This document shows positions 1,161 to 50,104 of a stretch of DNA of 64,000 nucleotides, piece after piece. Numbering within the stretch: position 1 is the first letter of the stretch; the number at the start of each line of letters is the position of its first letter. The DNA is taken from assembly GCA_000697475.1 (NCBI GenBank), contig JNEU01001091.1:62001-126000 (forward strand), written 5' to 3'. The notes under the pieces were generated by a model. It searched no databases. It saw nothing but the letters and a program-made list of their open reading frames with translations, and was not told the DNA's origin. Position numbers and translations under genes: made by a program. Source of the stretch: Lichtheimia corymbifera B2541. Taxonomy: Eukaryota > Mucoromycota > Mucoromycetes > Mucorales > Lichtheimiaceae.

Positions 1161-2580
1161 GCTTTTGGCAATCTCTATTACCCGCTCTCTCTTTCCAATC
1201 CTATTTAATCCTTCTTGTATATACCCATGACGTTCATAACGCATTCCTTCTTATTCATTCCTCCGATTACCGGCTACTCGACACTCTTTCCTTGGTCAAA
1301 ATTATTCTATATGCATTTGGAGATGCGTGCATCTTCATCTTTCATCACCACTTTTTTCATGCTGCAACATTTACTAGTAGACAACTCATCACCATTCTTC
1401 ATATTTCCTTTCCCTGTCCTTAAAACATTAAGCATAATATGGTCAATACAATACATCAACGGGGCTGATAATAATAATACACTCGCTTTTCCTATATAAC
1501 AACTCGCTATCATTTTTATAATCAATGTTGATTACACGTGGGCTATTGGGAATAATGATGGATGCTTGTTTCGATCATTATTGATTTGATGCCATTTACG
1601 CTCTTATATTCAACTCCATGCATATTTGCAAAGGACAAACATCACAATGAAGGATCTCATTCACCGATATTTGAAGACTTACTATTGGTGTATCCATCTC
1701 ACCTGAGTTTGATCATTCATGGATTGTGTATAGGAGTAAAATCTCGCTCATTGTTTGAGCAGATACATACTCTCTATGGTAAGGATCGTCTTCATTTTAA
1801 AAAGGCAGACGAGTAGAGTACTGCGATCGAGAGTTTAAATGCCGTTGCCTTTACGGTACAAGTACGTAACGTAATGCGTCGTCACTGGTGATGGGTAGGG
1901 GTCTTGTAAAGGAGTAATTGCCGATCCACAACGTGGTAAGAATATACATCGATGTTTTGGGTAGCATGTGTTTTAAGCTGCAACTTTATTCTTATAATCT
2001 TATCATGCTTCACGACAACGTCATGATCTCTATGTTAGCTGTCATTGTCGACGTTTTTGGAAAAATACGGTTTCAGCGTTGTGTAAATGGAGGATCCAAA
2101 CGTAGCAATTCACTCCCATGTTTGCAATTGACGAGAGACAGCTACGCTCATTTGAGCACTTTATGCCAACCAGTGAAAAACATGGTCCGCTGTAGTGATG
2201 CATTGGTTGCACAGACGACCAAAGCAGATTTGTTTCCATAGCAACAACCATCTCCCAACACAATGATGTTTATTGTTGCAAATCAAGTATGTAATGACCC
2301 AACTCGATTGGCTGACTGTTCCCTAGACAATGACTTTGCCATTGTTAATGTAGCATGGCTTATGATGAATCCTCTAATACATGGTATCGATAGGCTACAA
2401 GCGGTTCATATTATTGATGGATGCATAATGTCTTTTATCATTTTGTATAACATAAAAAAAACTAAGCTATCTCCCCAAGCATGCAGGAACAGAAGCTATT
2501 GCAATTCGGACGTCCGCATTAACCCTTCCGTTTGTTCTCCTTGTTGGTTGTTCCTCTTTCTCCCCGAACACCGACTTTTG
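1161..2580. other. intergenic, no gene recognised
   Basis: About 1.4 kb between the Zn2Cys6 gene and the DUF2408 gene. Open frames here are short, lack family resemblance and splice poorly. It presumably contains the 3' UTR of the first gene and the promoter of the next. Confidence 0.5.
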
Positions 2581-4420
2581 ATGACTGTAGTACCCATTCC
2601 AACACAAGGTGCGCACCCCACTAGAATACGATCGTAACTTTTGACTCATTCAGCATTCGACTAGAAATCCCTGTTCTCGAGAGTCTTATCACTATTCGTC
2701 ACAAGCTCTCAGCATTGAAGAAAGACAGAGATGCCAGCCCAAAAAGTGAAACAATCCTTGAGCTCTACCAAGAAACCGAAAAGCAAGTGGAGACGCTAGC
2801 TGCTATTCGATCGGGTGATGTTTGGGATCCGACTCTTCGCAATCGACTCAATGACGTATTGGACGATGTTATGTCGCTGCTTTCCCTCTTTTACATGAGT
2901 CTTGGGCGTAATAGACAAAGTAAGTGTGATCTAAGATAGGAGCGTCGTCGTAATTTGATGCTGATTTTACTTGACAGGTCCTGCCGTCTATGTCCATTTG
3001 GTAACGGCCGAGGTAAGCATCACCTGGTGGATCAGCTATCTTTTTTTGCACAAGCTGAGTGTGATATTATTCTATGTATAGCGCTATTTAGGTCAGCTGG
3101 CACAAATGGGCATCTACACAGACTCGATCCTCGTGGAGATCGAAGCACGGCTCTCCGATGTGGAAAATATCATTTATGCAGACGAGAATGGCGAGATTGC
3201 ATCATCATTCCTTGACCTACTCAAGAAGAAATTGGCCCGATGCAGTAAGTTGTTATATGACTCATTTCATTGTTGTTATGGTTACTCATGGTTTCTATGG
3301 AGCACGAATTGGATATCCTTCTCGAGTTGACTCGCGACGTATCTCCTGAGCTGTAAGTACTTGTGGACAAGCTGTAGGTGTATCCAATAGCTGACAACCG
3401 TATCTCTGTAGCGAATCCATACACAAGGAGCTTACGACATTAAGGCGAGATTTGGGCATAGTCGCCGCAAGGCCCGCGGGTTTTACAGCCAATGACATTT
3501 TACCGTTCCAGGAAAAGGTAATTGGATTTTGGATGCATCAATAACATGATGTTTCTAACCAACTTGTTGTGTAGCTGCGTCAAATTGATCAACGCTGGTC
3601 ATCCAAAGAAAGCGAACAGCTGCCCGGCAAAGGATTGATTGTTGGCTTATTGGAGCAACTACATGAAGAGACACACGACCTTATCGCATCAACTGAAAAC
3701 ATATCAGCATCATTGGTCCCATTGGCTGATCGTCTCAAGGAGATCAAAGGACAACTGGAGCGATTGGCGCTGACACATCGATGGACGTTACGAGAGACCG
3801 ATCTGTATACTTTTCAGGTATATATTGCTCATTGCTTGTGAGATATATGTATTGACATCATCACTCAATGCCTTTATAGGTTCAGCTGCAGGAAATTGAA
3901 AAGTTGCGGGTGAATGGCAAGTTCAAGGACGCAGATGGGAATGTTCCTGAAGGTCAAACGGTCATCAACTTTTTGCTTCGTGGCTGTTATCGCTTGATCT
4001 CAAAGATGCTTGGAGAGAACGTGCCGGTAGCTGAAGCATTGATGCCTGTCCACAACCAACTAAGCACGGTGCGACGCTGTTTGATTGAAGTACAAAAGTG
4101 TGGCAAACCTGATTCAGCACGCGATCTTTATCCGTAAGTCAAATAGGCTTCTATGTGATGCAGGATGTTAAAACTAACACGCATTCATAGGTATCAAATG
4201 AAATTAGCAAGCATCGACAATATTCGTGTGAATGGAATCTTTTATGATGAAGATAACAACATCCCAGAAGGTAGCTATGACGAATAGAGATATTGGATGT
4301 GTCATTGTGTTGGTATATTGACATACAACTATTATAGGGCAAGCGATTTGTATTGCACTGCTGAACGAGTGCTACGACATTCTTCACGAGCTGATGTCTG
4401 CAGTCGACGAAACCAACTAG
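2581..4420 (+). CDS. DUF2408 / UPF0662 family protein
   Basis: About ten exons: 2581-2608, 2665-2919, 2978-3012, 3082-3244, about 3303-3352, 3412-3517, 3575-3817, 3880-4133, 4191-4270, 4338-4420. The start MTVVPIPTQ joins to EIPVLESLITIRHKL, which is why this ATG was chosen. Two related segments, EIEKLRVNGKFKDADGNVPEG and SIDNIRVNGIFYDEDNNIPEG, each followed by a helical tail, are the hallmark of DUF2408 (S. pombe UPF0662 proteins). The rest is helical, with RRWTLRETDLY-like sequence in the middle. Function of the family is poorly known and none is proposed. Oddity: between 3244 and 3303 the only GT-AG pair leaves the conserved frame off by one base, so either a non-canonical junction or a one-base indel is present. 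Confidence 0.82.
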
Positions 4421-6874: not shown

Positions 6875-8618
6875 CTAGTAATTGTTGATGCATGAATTTG
6901 GCTCAACAGGGATATCACGATCGTCAGCTACACTGGTTGCATATTCGTAATCATCGAGCATATCATCGAATTGCACCCGTTCTTTTCTCCTTCTAGCTTT
7001 TCCACCCTTGATTGTTGATTGTTTGCCAATAAACTTGGGGGCATGGACACCTTTAAGCAGTGGATTGTGTGCAAAAGTCCCTGCTGAACCATCATCTTGT
7101 TTTGGATGTTCCACCTTGGATGGCTGTGGTGGTTCTTCTGGCTCCGAGTCTTCATCAGAACTTGCACTTTCCTCGTTGACGACGACTTGACGCGACTGAA
7201 CATCGATGGTCATAACACGACGACGTGAATCGGTATTCTGAAGTTTCTTGAGGTTGGCCTGCTGTTTCTTTAGTAAAAGAGCTCGTTCTTGAGGAGACAA
7301 CCAGGGATTCAACTGATCTGACGGCAAAGTGAAATCCGTAGCTTGATCTATATAAAAAGACAATCAATATATAAGATCACACCCAGAGATGGGCTTTACT
7401 TACCAATGACAGTAGTACGCTTTGCACTTGTACGCTGGAATTCCAGCAGCTTTTCCTTATGAGCCTCTGCACGCCTTCGTCGTTCATCTTCAACCTTTTC
7501 ATCCCATACTGGTTCTTGATACGCATTCTTTGGAACAATATCTCCACTGACTTTGGAAGCGTAGCCGACTGATGGTGTTGCTGCACTAGGAGCTTTACGA
7601 GGTTGTTGTGTAGCATTCATCCGTTGTTTTTGCTCTGCACGTTTCCGCTTGGCCTCTGCGATCAATGCGACCTGCTGCTCCTTGGATAAAACCGGTGTGC
7701 CACAAAAAGTACATGGTCCCGGACCTTCAGCAGTGCAAATGATCTTGCCACAATTGAGACAATTGGGTGCCACTGTCAACAAAGGATGCTTCGTCGCTGA
7801 TAATAATGGCTAATATTAGTATCGAATAGGCCATCCCCGATTTCTCTTTTCATATATACCTTGACAATGACAGACACGTCTTTTACCATTCTTCTCTGTG
7901 GTGGACGCTTTGATATGTAGCTCCTTCAATGCAGCTTCCAAGGTCATTTCATTCTTCTTTTTCTTCTTCTTTTCAGTGGTGGTGTTGGTGGGTTCAGTGG
8001 ATGAAGATTGACTTTGAGAGGATGTTTTTTGCTTGGCTTGTGCTTTGCGTGAACTATGGTAGGTAGTAATGTCAGATACCCATCGTTCCAATCCCGCTAT
8101 TTATGCATGGAGTAAGACTCACCTACGGAAATAATCCCCTTCATTCTCCTTTTTCATATAAACATTGATGTTGCTTGGCCATTCAGTCTCTTGTCGTTCG
8201 GTTGCTGGAAGTGATGGGAAATGCTGTACTCCAGTACTTGGTGGCTTCTGCTGCGGTGTCTGTGGCTGTGGCTGTGGTGGTGGTGTTGGTGTTGGTGTCG
8301 ATCGTTGCCTTTGCTGCGGTGATGATGATGCCTGTGACAGTGCTTGTTTCTTGGGTCCAGCAAACTGACGCGATGTATACTCTTGAATAAAAGCAATGCG
8401 GTCTTGATCCGATCCAAGCATTTCCTACATGCAAAAGGGATGAGTCAGCTGTTGTCGAATGAGAGTAAAAAGCGTTGCCATGTTACCATCAAATGGTTTG
8501 AGAATTCGTCAGCAGTCTTCAACGTCTTCAGATACGGCAGAACTTGAGTTTTAAGAGTTTCATCATCAAAGCCGAGGAATTCGCTCAGTTTATGAACAGC
8601 CCAAGAATCGGTATCCAT
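6875..8618 (-). CDS. TRIP4/ASC-1 homologue (Rqt4-like), C2HC5 zinc finger protein
   Basis: Five exons (8618-8487, 8424-8123, 8053-7860, 7796-7404, 7347-6875) join to 497 aa. Splicing assembles CHCQATKHPLLTVAPNCLNC, then GKIICTAEGPGPCTFCG, the C2HC5 zinc finger diagnostic of activating signal cointegrator 1 (TRIP4). The preceding region is Pro/Gln- and Lys-rich and disordered; the tail has NPWLSPQERALLLKKQQANL and an acidic stretch. In animals TRIP4 belongs to the ASC-1 complex; its fungal counterpart Rqt4 is a subunit of the ribosome-quality-control trigger complex that splits collided ribosomes. That role is inferred from the family. The start MDTDSW is the first ATG giving a short N-terminal helical domain; an ATG 33 nt upstream (8651) is also in frame. 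Confidence 0.88.
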
Positions 8619-35791: not shown

Positions 35792-36200
35792 CTATATTCT
35801 GACCGATGCATACATTGTACTATGCGTTGATAATGTTTATCGTCACGGGAGGGAATGCGTCATTATCATTCATTGCTTACCTCTTTAGAGGTACTATCAT
35901 GGACTAAAGGTTAAGCGCAAGATTTTAGTACACAAAGCAGTGATGATAATGTTTCTACCAAAGTAATACTTTACCTTGCCATATGACAGTGGATTGATCA
36001 ATCATGATACGTTCCTTGACATGGAAGCTTTCACACATCGCTAGCTTGATTTGTTGTTGGATATATGGGTTATCACGCTATAAAGCAATACATGAGCGAT
36101 GAGAAATCTACATAGATGCCAAACTTACTCTAACAGCAGGTGTACGTATGATAGATGATACAGTACTGCTTTGAGAGCGCGTTCTTTTGCGTTTAGGCAT
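35792..36200 (-). CDS. tiny four-exon gene, 71 aa, unrecognised
   Basis: Exons 36200-36129, 36077-35975, 35893-35881 (13 nt) and 35819-35792 join in frame. The protein begins MPKRKRTRSQSSTVSSIIRT (basic, nuclear-localisation-like) and continues RDNPYIQQQIKLAMCESFHV. All junctions use GT-AG with ordinary consensus (GTAAGT, GTAAAG, GTAAGC donors; ATAG or ATGATAG acceptors). If the last intron is retained the product ends ...WQVPLKR at 62 aa. No family is recognised. The consistent phases argue for a real transcript, but a decayed fragment of a larger gene is possible. Confidence 0.42.
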
Positions 36201-37014
36201 GATTGTATACTGCGGCGTGAAAGAAAGATGGATAACGCGGCTATCAAACTACATGAAATGTGATTGATCGGCGCGCACTTTTAAGCTCCTACGTTTTTTT
36301 GGTAAGACATTGGTTGGCGCCTTTACACCCTTACAAGCTCTATGATAAGTTAAACATAACCTTACTATTGACAATTCATGTTGTGGTATATACCCTGCTT
36401 AGATAAGAAGATAGTATACACATTGAGTTCACAAAAGAAGAACGATACCAAATCAGCAAATAAAAGTGAATCTAAAAGGAGCGGAGTAGTACAAGGAGCT
36501 TGTACGATACACCTCCTCTGTTCTTTGTCTATTCTCACTATCCCAGTCATGGCACGATCCCAACACCCGTTGCATTTGAACGATTGCTTAAGGCACTGAC
36601 AGTATGAACAGCACAAGATTTACGATGAGGAAGGTACTGAAGTTGCAAAAGGAAGGAAGGCAGCCTTTGCTCTTTTAATCACAAATGTATCAATCCACCA
36701 GGTACGATCCACGAGGCTCGAAACAAGGATATGTCATCGTACGACAAGAAGTGACAAGATTCGCATGTCAAAGGTATGCTTCTAATGCGCGAAAGCATAG
36801 AGCTACAGTTGGCAACTGACATGAACATAGAAGGCTTTTCATTGGTTATTTCACTGGCACGTCAAGGATGTTATCATACTGTTTACTGCCTTGGGGAGTT
36901 CTCGTTACCAAGTTTTACAAGTATCCTTTTGTATGAATCTGCAACAACTTCTATTATCTTTCGGCGTCGTCAAGGTTTATCACGCCTGATTGTGGCTCTA
37001 TTGTCGACATGTCT

Positions 37015-39310
37015 TTTGGTGGATATCCAACTACGCTTGCCTGTTATCGGTGGATCATATCAGCAACAATTACAAGAAGCGGCAATGAGCAATAGAGCCT
37101 ATACCTTTAGTGCCAACAACTCTTACTCGATTCCCTGGTGGTTCTCATTATTGGCCAGATACTCTCATCAAGAGCATCCTGATGCACATATCCCTTACGG
37201 GGGGTATCACACCAGCAACAAGCTACAGTATATGTGTGTGTGTGTGTCTGTGTTTTGGCGCTATCAAGATTTATCGACCGTCCAAGGAAGCTATCATCAA
37301 GCAACACTACTACCTCTGGAAAAACGGTTATCAGCAATTGTTTATTGTATGGGAATCTCTGCAGCAAGGACATCGGCTTTTGGTGCTGGGTAGAATCAAG
37401 GACGTCGGGTGTATCCATTCCATGCGGTCCACAGCAAGAAGTCTTTACATTGCCTCATTTGGGTATGTTGGCATGGAGACGCGTCTAGATTGGGTTTCCT
37501 TGTTATCTCACAATATGCTCATGGTAGATTAAATACGTTGGATGGTGGTATCTCTGACAGCAACAAAATATGGATCTCAATGCAAGAACGCTATATGGCT
37601 GGCTCATGGGTATGCATGGTGTTGGATCTACAAAGCAGGACCAGTTAATTAACCAGCCTTACAATGAAGCAGCAGCAGTAGCACATACTGGATCGCATGG
37701 ATACAAGGTTATTTGCAAGCATCAAGAAATGGTATTGGGAATACCAGAAGGTAAAGTGATTATTTTAGGATTTGTCGCCTTCAAGTGCACTGATGAAGGA
37801 AATAGAATGGCACAGACTCTCTTCCGGCGATATTATCATTATCACAGCAGCACGTCAAGGGATGGAGTGTACTGTCTTAAGGGGGAAGGCCACGGTGTGT
37901 TAGCGGAAATCATGTTCGGCTCATGGTGCGATTTCGGTTTAAAAATGCATCCCCTGATCGATATTGGAGAACAACGTATTTGCTCCACCCTTTGCAATGC
38001 TATACGTTACTCGACTTGGAGAGATGGTGGTTATCTCCTTGGCAACGTGGCTGGACCCACGGCAAGTGGTTGATAAGTCAGCTGGGGAGGGGCTCATATG
38101 GGTCACCTGAAACCGGCGTTTTGATGCCACGTTCCTCCGGAGGCTAGAAGACAGTGCGGGTGCTTCATTCCTTGGCTGTGCGCTTTTATTATTACATTTA
38201 CATCCTGGTGGTCTATTTGGTCCCAAGCCTGAGTGATGATTGGGTGATTCAGGTATGTATGATTCTGATGCATTTTGGAAACTTTGCTGAAACGGCTGCT
38301 ACTATTTAGACGGACCACTGCAGGGAGCTACTTGTCTTTCGGTGCCTTGAATTTTGCAAGATCACGTCTATGATTGATAAGTATTGTTGGATGGGATTGG
38401 AAAACTTCGTTTACTGAGCATATTTTATAGTTGAATCATGTCAGTCATGAGGAAAAGCGTTACATCTTTAGGTGGCGCCAACGTCCATCCTTATTCCATT
38501 TCTGGTGTTTGGTTACCAAGCAACGGGCGATTTCTCTGAAGAGTGTCAGCCAATGCACGCATGTCTCTTGGGAGTGGATTGTATCAGCAATAAGCAACAG
38601 CATCCATATCGTTGGTATCATATCAAGCTTTATCACATCATCCGGTGTTTCTCGTTATCGGCAATTCGGTGGATATCCTGAACTGAAGGTCTCTTATCGA
38701 TTGATCCCGTCAGCAGCAAGGAACAACTTGTATATCTTTGGTGTCAGCAAGCTTCCCGTCTCCTGGTGGTTCTGGTTATCGGCAACTCCTTTGATACACG
38801 GCTGCCATTCAACGTCTCTTATGGATGGATCATGTCATGAACAAGCGATGAGAGCCAACGTCGACATCTTTAGTGATACCAATGTCATCTATGCATCTGT
38901 CCAAGGTCGACACCAATTCTTTGATGGATATCCTGCTTCGCATGTGTATTATCGGTGGATCATATCAGCAACAAGCAAGACGCAGCAGCAACGAGCAGCA
39001 GGGTCTATATCTTTAGTGTCAACACCATTTACTCGATTCTCTGGTGGTTCTCGTTATTGGCCAATTGCTTTCAAAAGCATTCTGCAGCGCGTGTCTCTTA
39101 TGGGTGTCGCATAGCAACGAGCAACAATATTACGTGTGTTCTTGGTGTTATCAAGGTTTATCGATCACGCAACCCATTCGTCGTCAACTATAGCTCCCTT
39201 CCTTTGGCGAATTATTGGTATGTATAGTATTGGATCTACAATGCAAGTGCTGTCAACTAACGAGCCTTACACTGGAATAGCAGCAGCATGATATTGTTGG
39301 CATGGAGATA
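37015..39310. repeat. degenerate tandem array, 125-150 bp period, with duplicated tail
   Basis: The core GGTGGATCATATCAGCAACA (with variants) recurs near 37051, 37195, 38568, 38692, 38818, 38948 and 39098. Between cores lie ATATCTTTAGTGTCAACA-like and CTGGTGGTTCTCGTTATCGG-like stretches. The tail GTATTGGATCTACAA...AACGAGCCTTACA...GCAGCAGCA occurs twice (about 37593-37700 and 39206-39305), so a larger block was duplicated. Translations of units resemble each other (YIFSVNTIYSILWWFSLLAN against YTFSANNSYSIPWWFSLLAR) but fall in different frames with stops, so present-day coding is unlikely. Confidence 0.7.
37231..37253. repeat. (TG)n microsatellite
   Basis: An alternating TG run inside the degenerate array. 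Confidence 0.8.
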
Positions 39311-40485
39311 CGGTTTTATTTGAAGGAAGGACGCTGTTGAGAATTACTACAAGGTAAGAGTATTGGTCATGGAATGTGTCACATGCATGTGTACTTACAA
39401 TGGAAGATATGTAATGACAGCATCTGCACGGCAAGCATGGATTATTTTTTCTCTTGCTATGGTGAACAAGGTAAAGCATTTTATAATAATGATGGTGATG
39501 AATAGATGATTGATGTCGATGATATGTAGAATACAGCTGGTGGGATGGGATTGGATGGAATGATGATTTGCATCGTATCAAGAACAAGAGTGCAAAGAAG
39601 CAAGGGTATTGGTTGTCATCACTCGCTGTTTAACACCAAGGAGGTTAGTTACTCGATCAAGATAATAATACAACACCTTCACTGACTGATTACTTAATCA
39701 AGGATGAGCTCGAGATCATGTACGTAGGCGCAGGATGGTCTGGGTAATAAGGTATACCATATGGACAGCGTGTAATGCAATACATCATTGTTATTAATGC
39801 AATCCACGTTTATGCTCTAGATAGCTGTTCCTAATGTATTTAGATTGAATTTATTGAAAATGACATAATACATACCTGGGGATGGTTTATATCAGGCAAT
39901 ACTGGATGGAAATGGTGTTATCGATATGCGTAGTGCTTTTGTGGATGGGATATTTGCCAGCATACGTACCTTTATCATGAACTCTTAAATTACCAGCACC
40001 ATTATTCATGGTATCGAGCAGAGGAGTGAAAGAGACAAATACAAATGGGGTAGAGTATTAGTAAGGGATATAGATTGTCATTATGAGCAAGTAGTACACG
40101 TGTGAGTTTTGGTAGCATTTACCTTACTGGTTGCACTTCTAATGACTCCTACACTAACTCTTTTTGTTCTGCCGATATACAGTTTGCTTCTCACGTTTAA
40201 AGAGTCTCAAGTTTGGTGTGGCTAAAAAGTATGATTCTAACTTGTCGCCAACCAGTTGAGAGATTAGGAAATGATTAAGGATGTTGGGTGATATACATAC
40301 GTGTGTATTACCTTGTCGTTTGTGAATCTCAAAAAGTTAACAACCTAAGCGGTGAAAGCTCATCACTTAAGGCTCTCCTCCTACACCTATTCATGCAATT
40401 GTTCCGTTCTTTTCCATGAAAGCTAACAATAAAGTAACTGCAAGCTTGTAAGCATGGATGAGAACAAATATATCGCTTGTTATAG

Positions 40486-40534
40486 CCCACAAACTGGAAA
40501 AGCACCTAAATCCTGTGCTTTTCCAGTTTGTGGG
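40486..40534. repeat. perfect 20-bp inverted repeat (hairpin)
   Basis: Arms 40486-40505 and 40515-40534 are exact reverse complements over 20 bp, with a 9-nt loop (CTAAATCCT). The arms start CCCACAAACTGG and end CCAGTTTGTGGG. It lies about 180 bp upstream of the ATG of the XPG-Fanzor gene, near the probable promoter. It could be a short foldback element, a transposon-end relic, a small-RNA precursor or a terminator-like structure. No second copy was seen in the window. Confidence 0.9.
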
Positions 40535-40715
40535 TACATATAATTATTATACCGGATTTTCCCTTGAAGGTAAAACTTGTATAATATTTCAAGTGAATCT
40601 GTGATATATGCTACTAGTTTTCTCTTTTTCGCTTTTCTATCATCTACTCAAGTTTACCAAGGTTAGAATTATGCTTGTCACTACGTATCAATGCTCACAA
40701 CCCATATTTTCATAG

Positions 40716-43700
40716 ATGGGATTAAAAGGATTACACCGATATGCTCGTGACCATAATGTCTATGAAGATGTTAAAGTTGTTACCGAACTTCAACGCCGCA
40801 AGACTTCTATCCTATTTGTGGATTTTTGCTGTGTGTTTTTCTCCATGCTGCAGAATATTGTGGCTGAACAGCTATTGGAAGCTTATCTGACAGCCGGAGA
40901 TCAGCCTGGTCAAGAGGTTATCATCAACCTTGTGCAGCCGTTCGTCAATCACGTGACGCACCAGCTAAACATCCTAAGACAAGCCGTTCTTGATCAAGGG
41001 GGCAGGCCTATGCATATATGCTTGGTTATAGACGGCGAGGCTTTACCTGCGAAGGCTCCTACTCATGCAATAAGAAGAACTCATCAGTCCAATGCATTCC
41101 ATGCCGCCACAAAATATCACAATCATCCTCGACGTAAAGGAAAGAAACATTTCAGCTTTCGGAAAGCCGCAAGAAACTGGATTAGTTTCTCTCCCGTGAT
41201 CAAAAATGCCATACGATATATCCTCGAGCAGCAAGGTTGTGGAACGTACCAGCAAACATTTTTGAATGCTCCCACTAGTCAACAACGCCCAGCAATGAGT
41301 TACCACACAGCCCTTTTCGAAGCGGACCCGGAAGTTGTATTCCTTTCCGAACATGTTTCACCCGATGATGTTCCTGCTATTCTATCTCAAGATGGAGATT
41401 TATTTGGTTTTCACGGTGCTATTGATGTAATGGTATGCTTATTCTTCGTTTATTTCTATGTATTCCTTTATCTTACCCAAACATAATTAGCGTATCGTTA
41501 AAATTCAATGGAACAATCAAGCCAATTTCCATGGGCAAATCACAACCAAGCGAGACTTTTTCAATGAACTAGGTTTAGTTTCAAACAATCAAGCACTCTT
41601 AACTCAGGTACATGTTATTACCAGTAGTCAATAACGCACTTAAGCAATGCATACTCATCCTTGTTAATAGAGTGAAGTGCGATTTGCTTGCCTCGCAGCC
41701 ACATGTGGAAATGACTATGCTGAGAACATCAAATTTATTTCCTTTGCTCGGATTGCCAAGGTTCTTAACGAGATTCAATACCAAGCCCAGGTTGTCCCAG
41801 CCCATGAATTCTTGGAGACGCTACTTGTCAAGCTTTCAAGCACAGTAACATGGTATCAACGCCTCCGCTTCCGTGTAGCTGTCCATCAATTTTGCACACC
41901 AAGGGTATCTCACATCATCCCAGGCCTTGAGAATGGTTTCCATATTGGTATACCGATTTTGCGAGCCGACGATATGCTATATTATCTGGGGTTACATGGT
42001 GCACCAAATCCTCTCGCAACACCACTACAGCCTCTTCAACCACCACCACCACCACCACCACCACCACCACCACCACCACAGCAACCTGCGGTTCATATTC
42101 AAGGACCGATTTATAAGACTATACCTCCTACAACTGAGGGAAATCTTCCAGCTCTTCACGATTCTCTTGCCCAAGAAAGATGGGATGGTGAAGCAGGTGC
42201 TGCTGGCGACGGAGATGACAATCAACCTGGAAGCGGTGGCGGCCCAATGAGAGGCATCACCAAAGCCTATAACAAGGCAAAAGACAAGATGAAAGGTGTT
42301 ATCCCCAAAAGTTATGATCCTGAACGGCCAACGAAGAAGATCAAATCACGTGGCCAATTGGGGCAAACCGGCCAGACTGCTTCATCTTCGAAAGCTGCAA
42401 AACAGAAGTCCAAGACAACAAAGTCATCGGTCACACCACCAGATGATAGGCTCAACCTTGATGTGATGCCGACAACCATCAAGTTCAAAGTATACGACCA
42501 TGAACAAAACAAGCATGTACCAATGGCTTTCCACCAAAAGTCCAGAAAAGTTTCAACGATGCAAGCGGGGCTTTATTCTTCTGTTCTTGCTGCAGCCAAG
42601 TTTTGGAATGATATTCATCGACAATCACTTCCTGAAGCAAGCCGTTACCCCGAGCAGCAAACAAATGCATATGCTATAGCTGAGGCAGAGCTTTGGCAAG
42701 GTGTTATATCATCTGTCGCGAAAGAAATGTCTTATGCACGATACGTCGCGCTGCATATCCTCAACATTGCTCAACGCATTGCTTTCTACTCTCTTGATGG
42801 TGAGACCGCGTTGGCATTCTTCGGCGCATTCTTCACGAGTGATACCGCACTACTTCAGTCGTTATGGCGATTCATACTTTACTGTGGTATGGATTATCGA
42901 CCTTTAAGGCACGGTGCTACACAAACGGAAATCCGACAGGCAGAGCAGTATGCTTACAATGACAGGATCATTACGATTGCAATGGACGGAGAGTTGGAGC
43001 AAGGTGCCAATATACATGATCTCAAGGCGTTCAATGGCGATGTTGCTTATGTCCACTTGGCAAAGTTAATGAAGGCCAACATTGTTTTTCGTAACATATT
43101 TCTGCTGGCTCGTAAGATATGGTATCAAGATTGCTCTCAGGAAATGATCCAGCGAGCGCCTCCATCACAACACAGATCCCAATTACTCGATCTTATCGTC
43201 ACCAATCTCATCAATGTCTACCAATTGAACGTTGTCAGGAATTTTCCTATGAGATATCATCGATATATTGAAAGGCTACTCAAGGAACAAGCTAGGGTGC
43301 CTATTGGATGGCCTACGGATGATGCCTTCATCCAACAAATCGTAGACCAGGTGAACCATGGTGGGAATACCAATTTCATTGATGATTTCGAATTTGCTAC
43401 CGATGGTGCACGTGAAGCTGCCAGACAACATATGCAAAAGCTTATTGATCGGCGAAGAAACAGCGAGCCTCATTCCCAAGATTACCACTTTAATATCGAA
43501 AAGTGTACACAAGAACTCATAAGCATTGCAACCATTCCGGAGAATTGGCCGGGGCCGAAGGATGCATTGATTGGATACTTGTTCTATCGTATATGGGGTG
43601 TAACTCTACGATCATTGGAAGATGCAGAAGACGAAGCCGAAGAAGAGCAACAGTTTCAACAACGAGTTGAGCAACTCCCAGGTCACATTCGTGATGCCAT

Positions 43701-45584
43701 TGACCATTTTGTTCAAGAGCGAAGGCAGGATCAAGTGATTGGTTATACTGTTGAAGAAGCACCCATTCATGAATTGCTGGGTATTGCTACACAACCTCAA
43801 GAGCAGGAAACACAGGAGGGTGCACTTTACACAGCCACAATATTACAGCATGCTGATGAGGGAAAGGAGAACGAACAGGCTAATCAGGAGTTAGAGGATG
43901 AAGACGACTATGTTGGAGATGTTAATGGATGTACAGAGGATACCGGTTGGCTGGTTGCCATGATGATTCATATGCTAGAATCATGTCCTGAAGGACTTTC
44001 CTATCCTATCTCTCCCCTGGCAGCTCAACACACGATCGCTATTCCTTTCACTGCTGGTGCCATATGTGATATTATCAAACATATGGAACATTTTACAGCT
44101 CCAATCATTGATCCTTGGAGTGCTATAGCAGATGATAACACCAAGAACGATGAAGAAAGGGATTATGCAAGAGAAAGTACGTATATATACTACATGCTAG
44201 TGCATATGTTAACCGATCATTGCTCATAGGAGCACAATCTCTCTTGGCTGCACGATATCGTATTCAAGATCGAGCACGTAAGGAATCTTTGTCACCTTCA
44301 TTGCTTCCTCCTGCGCACGGATTTCAAGCTTTCACCCGACAAATTGGAAGAGTTTTTAATCCAAACCGACCTCAACCAAGCAATGAACAAGATATCCCTC
44401 AAAGATATATACACGGATTATCAGATGCTCAAAGTTGGGATGGTGCTATCGATACAATATTTGACATCCGATGGCGAGGTCAGGTTGTTAACGTCGATGG
44501 AGAGGATCGTGTATGGAGATTAAAGAGGACCGGCTACGCAAGGATGCTTAGAAGAAGATTTTACATGGATGACAACAAACCACGGTACACATCAAGAAGA
44601 TTATTCTTATCGGATGGGATACGTATAAGGCAAAATTGGAACGATTGGAATACCGGTGCTCGTGTGAGCCAAACACCTCGCTATCTAAAGGAAATCAGAA
44701 GAACATCTCGAGAAGATCTTCAAGTCGCTCATGGTGTTGGTGAAGCAGATGATCTCCTTCAGTACTTTAGCGGAGTCACCGGACTAGATATAGGAGAAGT
44801 ATGCGCTGCGGCTAGTGTATTTCTTCCTTCGGATCCAAATCAAAATGGATCCCAACTTATTATCAAGCGCGGATTTCTTTATGGTCGTGTCATCCCTAAT
44901 CAGCAATGGTTGGAAAGAAGGAAGAATTCAAGGAATATACACGATTTGGAAGATGCCTTAAGCGAAGGTTCTGCAAGGTCAACATTCGCCAAGCTAACCG
45001 TCTATCTAACAGCATTAAAAACCGATGATGGGGCAATTCGGTTGTTCGACTTTTATTCATCTCCATCTGTGCGAAGAAGACTATGGGACAATCATTTGGC
45101 GCAGAGGTCGGCGATGGACCGAGCATGTCACCTTGTTATGCAGCAAGGAGCAAGAACGTCGCATGGAAACACCAATCTTCCAGTGATCTACGCATTCGGT
45201 CTTGATGGGTTGTCAAAAAGAGCAAGAAAAGGGGCGTTGGCACCTATGGATCATAAATTTTCGAGGCATTTGTATCAAAGACTTAAACAAGGCGTGCATC
45301 CATCAAGCATAACCAGGATCGATGAATATTTATCGAGCAAGACATGTTGTAACTGCTCAAGTCACGGCGTAGAATCTCGAGTCCAGTATCTGCAACACCC
45401 TGCCACTGCTTACGCTCCACAACGTCAGTCATATCGTGTCGTCATTTGCAACACGTGCAACAGGCGCCTTCATCGAGATGGCAATGCAGCTCATAATCTA
45501 GCTTTGGATACATGGTGTTACTTGAAATGGAGACGACGAGTAGGTTTTAGAATCAGACCCTCAAGGAGAATACAGGCCACATAA
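40716..45584 (+). CDS. XPG/FEN1-like nuclease fused to a Fanzor/TnpB-like RuvC nuclease
   Basis: Four exons (40716-41432, 41491-41607, 41671-44176, 44230-45584) join in frame to 1564 aa. Residues 1 to about 320 are XPG/FEN1-like: MGLKGLHRYA, LFVDF (D36), LVIDGEALPAK (D106), FEADPEV (E202, D204), SQDGDLFGF (D226, D228) and CGNDY (D293). A poly-Pro tract (about 400-413) and a basic linker (PTKKIKSR) follow. From about residue 545 (TTIKFKVYDHE) the protein resembles TnpB/Fanzor: GLDIGEVCAAA (RuvC-I, D1300), IDEYLSSKTCCNC (E1479, zinc C1486/C1489), VICNTCNRRLH (C1520/C1523) and HRDGNAAHN (RuvC-III, D1530). Fanzors are eukaryotic RNA-guided DNA nucleases; RNA guidance here is inference. The nearest alternative, two separate genes, would require ignoring consistent splice phases. 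Confidence 0.87.
42034..42080 (+). repeat. CCA-repeat encoding poly-proline inside the fusion gene
   Basis: A run of CCA/CCT triplets coding for about 13 prolines, placed between the XPG-like and the central part. It probably acts as a flexible or stiff linker. Confidence 0.85.
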
Positions 45585-47076
45585 TCACAACACAGCAATG
45601 TTTATATGTAGTATTCGTTTTCAAAGACAATGCATTTAGTACAGAATAAATGAACGATCGTCATTATCCATGTTCAATGCCAAATTAGCCATGTAATTGA
45701 CACCTTGTGATGTAAGATATATGACGGGTTGAATGGATGAGAGGGATCTTCAAAGATGTTTTCGCCATGTTGTGTATGTGGTGGTGTTATGCATACCAAG
45801 GATGAATCGCATATGTTCCCATGTGACGACGCCGCATGGAAATCACCCGTGTTTGGATTCATCGATAAAGATTTAGCATATAATAAATCCTTGAAAAGCA
45901 GTATTCCAACACCATTCTATCGTTGATAAGATATATCGGGTATCGGCTATGATAAAATCGTGAATATAATACATGCGTCTATATGGGATAATCTTGCTTA
46001 CCATCTAACTCATCCATGGTATCGTTAGAGTAAGATCTTGTGTAACCTCAGCAGTTATAATCCCTTATAATAATAATGCAAGCCAAGCTTCGAAGGGCAG
46101 CTGGTTGATTTGATAGGATGTAGTTGGCTGTAGATCGTCGGATACCGTTCCATCTATCATCGTTCAAAGTGCTGTGTAAGCTGTGATCATGTATCATGGC
46201 CCTCTTGTATAATCTAGATTTATTGATAGCAATGTCAGATTGATAACAGGTTTTGTATCAATCGTTTTATCCAAGTAGCAGACAAGACAAGGTTCCTAAA
46301 TAATAACAATGCAACAGAGAGCAAAATAAAAGCAATTGAGATATTTGTATATAGAGACAAGATAGGATTACTTTGAGAATCAATATATCTCTTTCAACTA
46401 TCGTTACCAGCTACAACTATAACACGACTTATATATGTTTCTATGATACTTGTGTGATGAATGCTGTATGGAGATAGGATTTATATATGATGATATTAGG
46501 ATAGATGAAATGATGGATACATAGAGTCGAAGGGAATCGTCGTGTGACGAACCTTGAGTGTATATATGGAAAGTTACACGCGGTGCTCTCTGTGAGATAA
46601 GCGTGGTCGTTGTGACACAATGGCTTGCCATCTTGTTCTTGGTAATGGATCTTACGTGTATTGGTACCTGAAACACGACAACAACAAGCGCGATATCGAT
46701 TATGAAAAACTTGCAGGTATTCAAACATTCAAAAATAGCTATTTCGGATGTTGTCACGGATATTGTTTAGCATTATGTTTGAGGGATATGCTTGACTACC
46801 TGCTCGTAACCAGCGCCTCCCCCTTTTCACCACAATCAAACAACCAATCTCTGCAACGGAACCACGGCTTCTCTACATTCAACAACACCCATTGATCAAC
46901 ACCGTCTTGTTGTCAACATTAAACAGACCTTCGCGTACTTGAACACCAACATCCATTGCAAATCAACACAGCGATGAACGTTTATTCTTTGTCCGAAGCT
47001 GCATGCGTCGTTATTGTACATGTAGAATTAATGCTCGTCTAGAGTTGGTTGATGCAAGCTTGTAGATGCCCAAGTA
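45585..47076. other. AT-rich intergenic region downstream of the fusion gene
   Basis: About 1.5 kb without a convincing gene. A frame at 46620-46895 has no family resemblance. In known Fanzor and TnpB loci the guide-RNA scaffold overlaps or follows the 3' end of the nuclease gene, so the first few hundred bases are a candidate place, but no conserved structure is seen by eye. A short 8-bp-arm hairpin (GATTGATA/TATCAATC) lies at about 46238-46263. Confidence 0.45.
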
Positions 47077-49510
47077 TTATGATGAATCACTGTCGTTCTC
47101 CTGCTCCTCCTTTTTCATTTTCTTCTTGGCATCCTGCCTTTGCTTTCTCTTTCGCTTTTTAGAGGCTTCGATCATTTCCCTAAAATTGCATAGTCAGTTT
47201 CATATCCTAATAAAGTGCATATACCATTCTCTAACACTCACTTTCTCCTTGCTGCTTTGATTTTCTCACGTTTTGGTGTTGTATCGATGGTCTCTCGCTC
47301 AAGTCCTTTTCGCTTGAATTCCTTCTTCATTTGGAAACTATAGAGATCATACATGAGTACTTTTTCGCTTCTTCCTCCTTCATTGAAACTCACGTTGGCT
47401 TCTTCAGCTTAAGCATCCATTCCGGAACTTTGCATCCTGATTCCTTCATGACATTGACAATGCTATGCATATAATATTAGCATCATGAGCACGGGATCTC
47501 CTCCTTTTTCTTACCTTCGTAGATATTGCATGTCATCCTTGGTATAGTAAGTAACAGCCTCACCCGCACGACCAGCACGACCAGTACGACCTATATGACA
47601 TCGTTAGATCTTTGCACGATAAAAGGAATCAACAAAGCTTACCGATTCGATGGATATAGCTTGCTACAGTCTGCGGAATGTCGTAATTGATGACAAGATT
47701 GACGCCCTTGAAATCAAGACCACGTGCCATGAGTTCGGTTGCAATCAACACCCAAATATTGCCCAAACGGAATTGATTGATGATATTGTCACGCTAGATA
47801 TACATTGCATAATAAAGCAGTATAAGCACACGTGGCAAGATGAAACACGCTATTTTCCCATACCTGTGCTTGTGTTCTATCCGAATGAATCACTTCAACA
47901 TTGATGCCATCATAAACAAGTTCATGGAACAATTCCTTGGCACGATCAATTGACTGCACAAAGATCAGTACTGGAGGCTTGATGCCCTTTTGGATATATT
48001 GTCGTAATGCCACCATTTTGCCTGCTTCATTTCCAGTAAAGATAAGCTCTTGCTTGATTGTCTCAGTTGCAGCATTTCTATATTTTCCATAATGAATGAT
48101 CAGCAGGCATATAAACAACAACAACAACACACACACACACACACCAAACTGTTTAGCATACCTTGAACCAATGACAACTTCAATAGGATCCTTCATCACG
48201 GTTTTGGCGAGATCTTCGACCTGGCCGGTGAATGTAGCACTGAACATATATTTGCGTACGTTGGGTCCTGAGCATGCTGCAAAAATCTCATCCGTTTGTT
48301 CCAAGAATCCAAGATCCATCAATTTATCCGCTTCATCAAGGACAAGATGCCGCACTCTTTCCGACAGAAAAAAAAAAGAAATGTTGTCAGTATCACCCCT
48401 ATGATTCTTGTCATGACCACTTACTCGCTCAAGTCGATCTGCTTTTCCCTCACAGCGAAAATCAGACGTTTAGGTGTGCTTATCAGGATATCTAATGGAA
48501 GGCTTGTTAGATTTATGGGAGACAACTGGATATCCTTCTATTGACGTACCAAACTTTTGTCGTGAATGTGGGTTTTGTGATTTGGAAGCAGCGGATGCCT
48601 TGGTAAGGACATTGATTTTGATACCGGTACCAGCACTAATCTTGACCAATTCCCGATGAATCTATCCATTGTACTTGTTAAAATGCATCCTTAGCCTTGT
48701 TCCTCTTTTCCAACTATACCTGTTGTGCCAATTCACGTGTAGGTGCGATGATCAATGCTCGGTAGCCCACTTTGGATGGTTCATCCAGGTCTTGGAGAAT
48801 GGGCAATAGGTAAGCGAGAGTTTTACCGGAACCGGTGGGTGCACAAGCCATGAGATCTCGACCCTTAAGCATGATTGGGATGGATTGCATTTGGATCGGT
48901 GTTGGTGTCTTATATTGGCTGCTGTGAAGATTCGTATACAGTTGTGGCTTCAAGTTGTAGGCCTCTGATGCAAGGTCCTGGAACGCGCAGAATGGATTGG
49001 GGATGTCGGTACCATAGACTCGGATACGCTTTGCTTTACGGAATGCTTGAGCTTCCTTTTGATTGTTGATCGTCTTCCATGTCTTTGCTATATACATCAT
49101 TGAATATACATATATATATGATTTATCCAATATCCCTTCTCCATACCTTGAGCATTATCATCATCATCATCGTTATCACTATTATCATCGCTATCATCGT
49201 CTTTCTCCTCGTCTTCCGAATCGACGTCCATAGACTGTTCCTCGACAGGCTTATCGTTAAGTGGATCGATCTCGCTCAACAACTTGGATCGTAACTTGGG
49301 ATCAATAGCTGCTGCATTGCTAGAAGCTCGTTTCTTTTTGTCGCTGGCCTTTTTGCCCTATGATACATACAAGGTGGTGTCAATGAAAAGGGTGCCTTCA
49401 CCATGCCGCTTCCATTCAAGGCGATCGTTTACCTGAAAGAGCTCAATGTCGTGACCGAACTGCTTCTTGTTGAAATGTGCACCGTTGCCCAGTAGCTTGA
49501 ATAGATCCAT
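47077..49510 (-). CDS. ROK1: ATP-dependent RNA helicase ROK1 (DDX52), DEAD-box
   Basis: Twelve exons from 49510 to 47077 join in frame to 579 aa. DEAD-box motifs are all present: [20 protein letters not shown] (Q motif), APTGSGKT (I), PTRELAQQ (Ia), [10 protein letters not shown] (II), FSATF (III), [12 protein letters not shown] (IV), [15 protein letters not shown] (V) and [15 protein letters not shown] (VI). The N-terminus [18 protein letters not shown], then an acidic stretch and [19 protein letters not shown], are typical of ROK1/DDX52. The C-terminus is Lys-rich. Expected role: 18S rRNA processing and 40S assembly in the nucleolus. A CAA/CA microsatellite lies in one intron (about 48114-48143). 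Confidence 0.96.
48114..48143. repeat. (CAA)n(CA)n microsatellite in a ROK1 intron
   Basis: CAACAACAACAACA followed by a CA run, inside the intron between the exons ending at 48162 and starting at 48077. Confidence 0.85.
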
Positions 49511-49690
49511 TGGCAGTAAAGGTTTTTTGCAAACTTGGTTTCTGCTTTCAACTCCTCCGCTTATAAAGGCAGCAGTTCGGCTTCCACCTCGTGACTTTTT
49601 GTATGTAGAAAGACAATTGCATTTATATCCATCACGTGTTTAGCTAGAAACAATTGTATACATAAAACATCCTCTTGCCATGCTATATGT

Positions 49691-49742
<52 letters not shown>

Positions 49743-50104
49743 TCAGGGAAGTCTCATCTATGTTGGATACCCGGATACTGATGTGAGAGAGACCCAATGC
49801 TTCTTTTCTTTACTATTTGATGTGGCCTAGAATTACCTATTGGCAACAAGCTATAAAAGTTGAGAGGTTGACCAAGATGATGGCGAGTAAGAAGATGATA
49901 CAATGAATCCATCTGGGGGTGGTTGATCCAAATGCTTCAATGCAAGAATTAGGTGTTGCACAAAATGTCGCATGGGTTGCCAATTCTGATAAGACGCCCT
50001 CTTTCAGCTCTGCGATTTTACTCCTCTTCCGCTTTATTCACACACACCCAAGATCCATTCTTTACCTATCGTTTATATCTACTTTGAACTCTCCAAATAA
50101 CACA
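49511..50104. other. divergent intergenic region (ROK1 / Dsc3-like)
   Basis: Contains a long (CT)n microsatellite at about 49692-49735. Shared promoter region of two divergent genes; no further gene seen. Confidence 0.55.
49692..49735. repeat. (CT)n microsatellite
   Basis: A CT run of about 20 units between ROK1 and the Dsc3-like gene. Confidence 0.85.

Follow-up and report, generated by a model that had tools for sequence, protein, structure and literature searches.

A 64,000-nucleotide window of the Lichtheimia corymbifera B2541 genome (contig JNEU01001091.1, positions 62,001 to 126,000, the whole stretch analysed and the frame for the positions given here) contains a gene, here named W, at 40716-45584 of the plus strand, which is predicted to join an XPG/FEN1-type nuclease and a Fanzor/TnpB-like RuvC nuclease in one polypeptide. 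Its four exons are separated by three GT-AG introns (41433-41490, 41608-41670 and 44177-44229; phases 0, 0 and 1), and the single open product of 1564 residues starts with MGLKGLHRYA and runs through HRDGNAAHN to the stop codon at 45582-45584, as described in the original prediction, which had been made from the window sequence alone. A search for relatives in the 35-Mb genome (432 contigs) detected two intact sister genes, L009 on contig C281 (1417 residues) and L010 on contig C61 (1416 residues). FKBP, tried as a taxonomic marker for this genome, led to an Fpr4-like paralog and was of no use for placing it.

An open frame is not enough to place the splice sites here: 198 GT-AG combinations were open in a narrow search, four of them with products of 1564 residues. 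Because many GT-AG choices keep the frame open, outside support for the gene model was needed, and this was mostly supplied by L009 and L010. Introns 1 and 2 are found at identical alignment columns (242 and 284) and in phase 0 in the three genes. The last intron is in phase 1 in all of them and is likely, though no more than likely, to be homologous, since its positions differ by 18 columns in a region that aligns poorly. One further intron, in phase 2, is present in L009 and L010 and missing from W. The GC content of the W introns is 0.28-0.36, versus 0.45 in exons 1, 3 and 4; that of exon 2 is 0.37.

The junction of the two halves lies within exon 3, where a single uninterrupted frame with 852 open residues covers the D293 motif and the linker and continues into the next region. 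The XPG end, the linker and the next region are also found in one exon and frame in L009 and L010, and this arrangement in three of three genes therefore indicates a fusion rather than neighbouring genes that were misjoined. The domain order is the same in the three diverged genes, W being 36-37% identical to L009 and L010 over the XPG part, 34-36% over the middle region and 35-38% over the WED-RuvC part. The claim that both nucleases share one polypeptide was upheld, with both sets of catalytic acids and a common domain order in the three genes. The WED/REC region would begin at residue ~561, a border taken from the alignment; for the rest of exon 3 this label is suggested by domain order, and no Pfam or NCBIfam match was found for W 42517-44176.

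In the N-terminal half, seven catalytic acids (D36, D106, E202, D204, D226, D228 and D293) are invariant in W, L009 and L010. By FEN1 numbering they correspond to the acids of the family, with an E160-to-D change, and D293 is presumably the equivalent of FEN1 D233. At E-values up to 1, the Pfam domain XPG_I was found in all three members (best 6.7e-5) and XPG_N in two of them (best 2.6e-5), W itself having no XPG_N match. A profile of the three sequences retrieved from the PDB EXO1 (4e-6), RAD2 (5e-3) and FEN1 1a76 (0.08). The AlphaFold model of exon 1 was of modest quality, with a predicted local distance difference test score (pLDDT) of 56.5 and a predicted template modelling score of 0.59, and a fold search with it returned EXO1 for all of the top five PDB chains (E 5.5e-3 to 2.6e-2, probability 0.90-0.99). 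A recent origin of the XPG part from the host EXO1 was rejected, the similarity to L038, which we take from its motif to be the probable EXO1 gene of this genome, being weak (19.3 bits).

Three ordinary Fanzor-type loci with the DPG motif (L044, L045 and L046) are present in the same genome; no XPG match was found in these loci of ~9.5 kb each, whether with tblastn (E up to 1) or with a profile.

In the C-terminal half of W, L009 and L010, the RuvC triad D1300/E1479/D1530, assigned by motif, is invariant in the three genes. The glutamate occupies the alternative position, six residues before the zinc finger (E-x6-C), in W, L009, L010 and the ordinary Fanzor L044, and the [ST]DG motif reads SDG in W and TDG in L009, L010 and the ordinary Fanzor L046. 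In PMC10711439, the alternative glutamate is a criterion for Fanzors and the TDG motif in WED one for Fanzor1. The TNB domain (PF07282) was detected in W over the cut-off (E 7.8e-8), as it was in L009, and in all three members at E up to 1. The Fanzor motif of Bao and Jurka, D-X(125,275)-[TS][TS]XX-C4-X(5,50)-RD, as given in PMC3627910, matches W by eye. The profile of the XPG-Fanzor family aligned collinearly with L046 from RuvC-I to RuvC-III (W 1272-1554, P 1.2e-5, probability 81%), in a comparison of a three-sequence profile with a roughly joined single sequence.

Nonsynonymous (dN) and synonymous (dS) divergence between L009 and L010, by the method of Nei and Gojobori (NG86), was 0.10 and 0.38 for the XPG part (dN/dS ~0.26); the corresponding values were 0.38 and 0.55 for the linker (~0.68), 0.18 and 0.85 for the middle region and 0.15 and 0.82 for the RuvC part (~0.18). 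For W and its truncated copy on contig C312, 231 RuvC codons gave dN 0.029 and dS 0.357 (dN/dS 0.08), and third positions account for 44 of the 59 differences. By this measure both halves are under purifying selection, and from the ratios in both halves it was concluded that the two predicted nucleases are kept as working proteins. Comparison of the predicted genes establishes that the two domains are fused, that three paralogs conserve this, that each half has its set of catalytic acids and that purifying selection acts; the presence of two putative active sites is well supported.

Table 1. Features of the gene W, its conserved 3' block and its partial copies elsewhere in the genome.
Feature	Position	Strand	Residues or motif	Remarks
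W exon 1	40716-41432	+	1-239	Open frame and splice sites
W exon 2	41491-41607	+	240-278	XPG domain continues; flanking introns match L009/L010 in column and phase
W exon 3	41671-44176	+		XPG end, linker, probable WED strands/REC
W exon 4	44230-45584	+		WED with SDG, RuvC, zinc finger; stop 45582-45584
XPG domain			~1-345	Border set from alignment
XPG N and I regions	40716-41432	+	D36, D106, E202, D204, D226, D228	Invariant 3/3
XPG domain end	41671-41871	+	279-345; GNDYAEN with D293	GNDYA invariant 3/3
Linker	42007-42516	+	~391-560	Proline-rich, variable; lowest identity, highest dN/dS (L009 vs L010)
Rest of exon 3	42517-44176	+		Probable first WED strands and REC; 34-36% identical to L010/L009
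Asp codon of SDG in WED	44613-44615	+	D1242
RuvC/TNB			~1295-1540	Border set from alignment
Asp codon of RuvC-I GLDIGE	44787-44789	+	D1300
Alternative glutamate	45324-45326	+	E1479
C4 zinc finger	exon 4	+	C1486/C1489/C1520/C1523
Asp codon of RuvC-III HRDGNAA	45477-45479	+	D1530
Conserved block across stop codon	45483-45795 (313 bp)	+		May be a guide-RNA scaffold, or a functional 3' sequence of another kind
5'-truncated duplicate, RuvC part	C312 (L011) ~1976-2878	-		92% identical DNA over 904 bp
RuvC fragments	C423, C425
Weak partial copy	C8
XPG exon 1 with stop, exon-2-like piece	C118

Most likely, the product of W is a Fanzor1-like nuclease that carries its own EXO1/FEN1-like partner. The reading of an XPG-Fanzor, one protein with two nucleases that includes a proposed guided cut and trimming, is given a probability of roughly 45%. 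Under this proposal, the WED-REC-RuvC part would bind an RNA transcribed from the 3' end of the gene that encodes it, open the DNA of a matching site into an R-loop and cleave it. Enzymes of the EXO1/FEN1 family cut at single/double-strand junctions; the tethered domain could then trim the 5' ends or the displaced strand, with immediate resection of the break or removal of the flap, and the site would thereby be committed to copying from a sister copy, which is how TnpB-type elements home. It is plausible that the protein is RNA-guided, and joint action of both nucleases on one target is a reasonable, tentative reading. A self-contained RNA-guided cut-and-resect enzyme, whose Fanzor half would find and cut a site by its guide while the EXO1/FEN1-like half would at once take away the displaced flap or degrade one strand and so force homologous copying, is proposed tentatively and is rather doubtful. 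If true, it would be the first case, to our knowledge, in which nature has fused a structure-specific repair nuclease to an RNA-guided one. FEN1 or EXO1 has recently been added to prime editors by engineers, as stated in PMC12386499; if such a nuclease has been fused naturally to a Fanzor-like one with both active sites kept, the contribution of the second nuclease can be tested directly, and the fusion hints at how Fanzors direct repair and move through eukaryotic genomes.

Results from the protein comparisons, the 3' sequence and the flanks weigh against the XPG-Fanzor reading. In W, the XPG_I match was below the Pfam cut-off (21.1 bits versus 24.9, E 4e-4), and W alone, searched against the PDB, gave EXO1 at an E of 1 and nothing significant. 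The fold matches of exon 1 had template modelling scores of 0.34-0.36 and none had an E <1e-3. For the C-terminal half, L010 was under the TNB cut-off (23.2 versus 26.3 bits), the NCBIfam TnpB models were far under theirs (17.2 versus 100 bits), and the PDB profile search yielded no Fanzor but a TnpB, 9nzp, at E 0.024. The exon 4 model from AlphaFold had a pLDDT of 33.1, too low to judge a RuvC/WED fold, and the profile alignment to the other ordinary Fanzors was weak, with probabilities of 29% for L045 and 6% for L044. The zinc finger has four cysteines in W, and its second pair is degenerate in L009 and L010. RuvC-I reads DIG in W and DFG in L009 and L010, and the fingerprint DPG, near-exclusive to Fanzors at this position according to PMC10711439, is missing.

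The checks proposed in the original prediction were mixed in outcome. The Fanzor assignment keeps the Fanzor1-like triad, TNB and the alternative glutamate and lacks DPG. Profile searches recovered XPG_I across the family, and EXO1 with the joint profile, but left W alone short of the XPG_I cut-off; at the other end they placed TNB over its cut-off in W but not the TnpB models. Structure prediction lent weak support to the XPG fold and none to RuvC.

For the guide RNA, the evidence comes from the conserved block across the stop codon. W and C312 have zero synonymous differences in the last 34 codons, stop included, with nonsynonymous ones present (permutation 0.00065, for a region picked once the data had been seen). 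The 211 bp that follow contain mismatches at 9 of 207 positions and one 4-bp gap, compared with differences at 20 of 87 four-fold sites (Fisher 4e-6), and the homology stops abruptly at 45795. The guide-RNA scaffold and the right end of TnpB/Fanzor elements are expected at that 3' position, and the block is a hint of such a scaffold. Gene conversion would account for it equally well, and L009 and L010 show a conversion-like tract. Folding of the block was no better than that of shuffles (z 0.92 and 0.09) and the W and C312 versions fold differently, and folding was dropped as guide-RNA evidence on these grounds. There was no Rfam match within 36000-50000 of the window, and for L009 and L010 no blastn match >19 bp past the stop codon.

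The tract in the sister genes lies at their coding start, where synonymous divergence between L009 (from 2370) and L010 (from 2646) falls sharply at the start codon. Four-fold sites differ at 6% of 48 in the first 118 codons versus 37% of 444 overall, and the DNA just upstream of the start codon is only ~68-70% identical, a pattern suggestive of gene conversion.

No convincing element ends were found around the W, L009 and L010 regions, in which 22 (window), 11 and 14 inverted pairs were counted, respectively. A few imperfect pairs span the gene, such as 39576-39595 with 46625-46644 (85%) at W and 1928-1959 with 7227-7258 (72%) at L010; no inverted pair was seen common to different copies, and target duplications were looked for by eye only, in the flanks. 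No recent full-length copy of W was found in the genome. Three intact genes, broken pieces and the lack of convincing ends suit an old, low-copy, once-mobile family. W itself is probably no housekeeping repair gene but a gene of long standing and low copy number that is, or once was, mobile. In the C312 copy, the frame runs upstream into ~63 residues unrelated to W, forming an open chimeric frame of 300 residues.

These observations also bear on other readings. W could be a domesticated double nuclease, the Fanzor part of which would be a guide-free DNA-binding or structure-cutting module, with the XPG part working in host repair or recombination. Low copy number, the lack of convincing ends, the absence of DPG, a partly degenerate zinc finger and the lack of a structured 3' RNA are consistent with this, whereas the RuvC triad kept in 3/3 genes, with dN/dS of 0.08-0.18 there, and the several broken copies, which point to past mobility, argue against it, and on balance we consider it rather unlikely. 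The broken copies would fit a role of the XPG part in element mobility, as a transposase substitute or in excision/gap-repair processing, with RuvC acting independently as in other Fanzor1 proteins. Fanzor1 proteins are carried by many transposon types, and the MuDr-like Fanzor1 elements of Rhizopus, Phycomyces and Mucor lack a gene for the MuDR transposase, according to PMC3627910. However, neither convincing ends nor a recent full-length copy was found in this genome. XPG enzymes are not known to us as transposases, and a role of this kind is judged unlikely.

The variable, weakly constrained linker could suggest an ordinary Fanzor1 with a passenger XPG domain that does not cooperate with the RuvC half, but the XPG catalytic acids are kept and their domain has a dN/dS near that of the RuvC part, which makes a passenger improbable. 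An internal start in exon 3, or an additional internal transcript, is possible, and the internal start would speak for two separate genes misjoined by the gene model; with the junction inside one exon and frame in the three genes, and introns 1 and 2 common to all, such an error is hardly credible.

The XPG-Fanzor reading can be set beside known systems. The W family resembles Fanzor1 proteins (SpuFz1, GtFz1, PpFz1) in the D-E-D triad, the alternative glutamate, TNB, [ST]DG before RuvC-I and the long region between, and differs from them in the N-terminal XPG domain, DIG or DFG for DPG, and the incomplete zinc finger of L009 and L010. With EXO1/FEN1/XPG (Rad2) enzymes it has in common the MG[IL]KGL start, XPG_N and XPG_I, the seven acids and GNDYA, EXO1 being nearest by profile; unlike them, W retains just the nuclease core, joined to a RuvC nuclease, and is far from L038. 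The TNB domain, the hydrophobic residue in the RuvC-I DΦG and the PDB profile search, in which only TnpB appeared, recall TnpB/Cas12f, while the alternative position of the glutamate, a eukaryotic gene with introns, the size and the XPG domain set W apart. The family members, of 1416-1564 residues, exceed the 600-700 residues of the majority of Fz1 proteins, and PpFz1 of Parasitella, with its cyclophilin-binding FRI insertion, is likewise a Mucorales Fanzor1 with an added domain, which is a small insertion in RuvC and not a second nuclease as in W (both from PMC11423790).

No description of an XPG-Fanzor pairing was found in the literature searched, where the last broad term search was judged by title and abstract start among the matches listed, in agreement with the original prediction, which knew of no such system. 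Viral contigs gave 1 pattern match with W exon 4, 169 with the C-terminal alignment and 78 with the XPG alignment, and GTDB genome contigs gave 90, none of which was confirmed; plasmids and phages gave no match with W exon 4 as the only query. Novelty refers only to the searched literature and to prokaryote, viral, phage and plasmid DNA, and earlier sequence records, including fungal proteins, may exist.

Two dispersed repeats flank W at 39300-39424 and 46334-46620, with 39 and 21 further own-genome matches, respectively. They are not specific to W, and a piece of the 46334-46620 repeat is also found near L009 in inverse orientation. Closer to the gene, ~180 bp upstream of the start codon, is a perfect 20-bp inverted repeat with a 9-nt loop (window 40486-40534), which matched only itself in the own-genome DNA search and is very stable as RNA (z -5.6).

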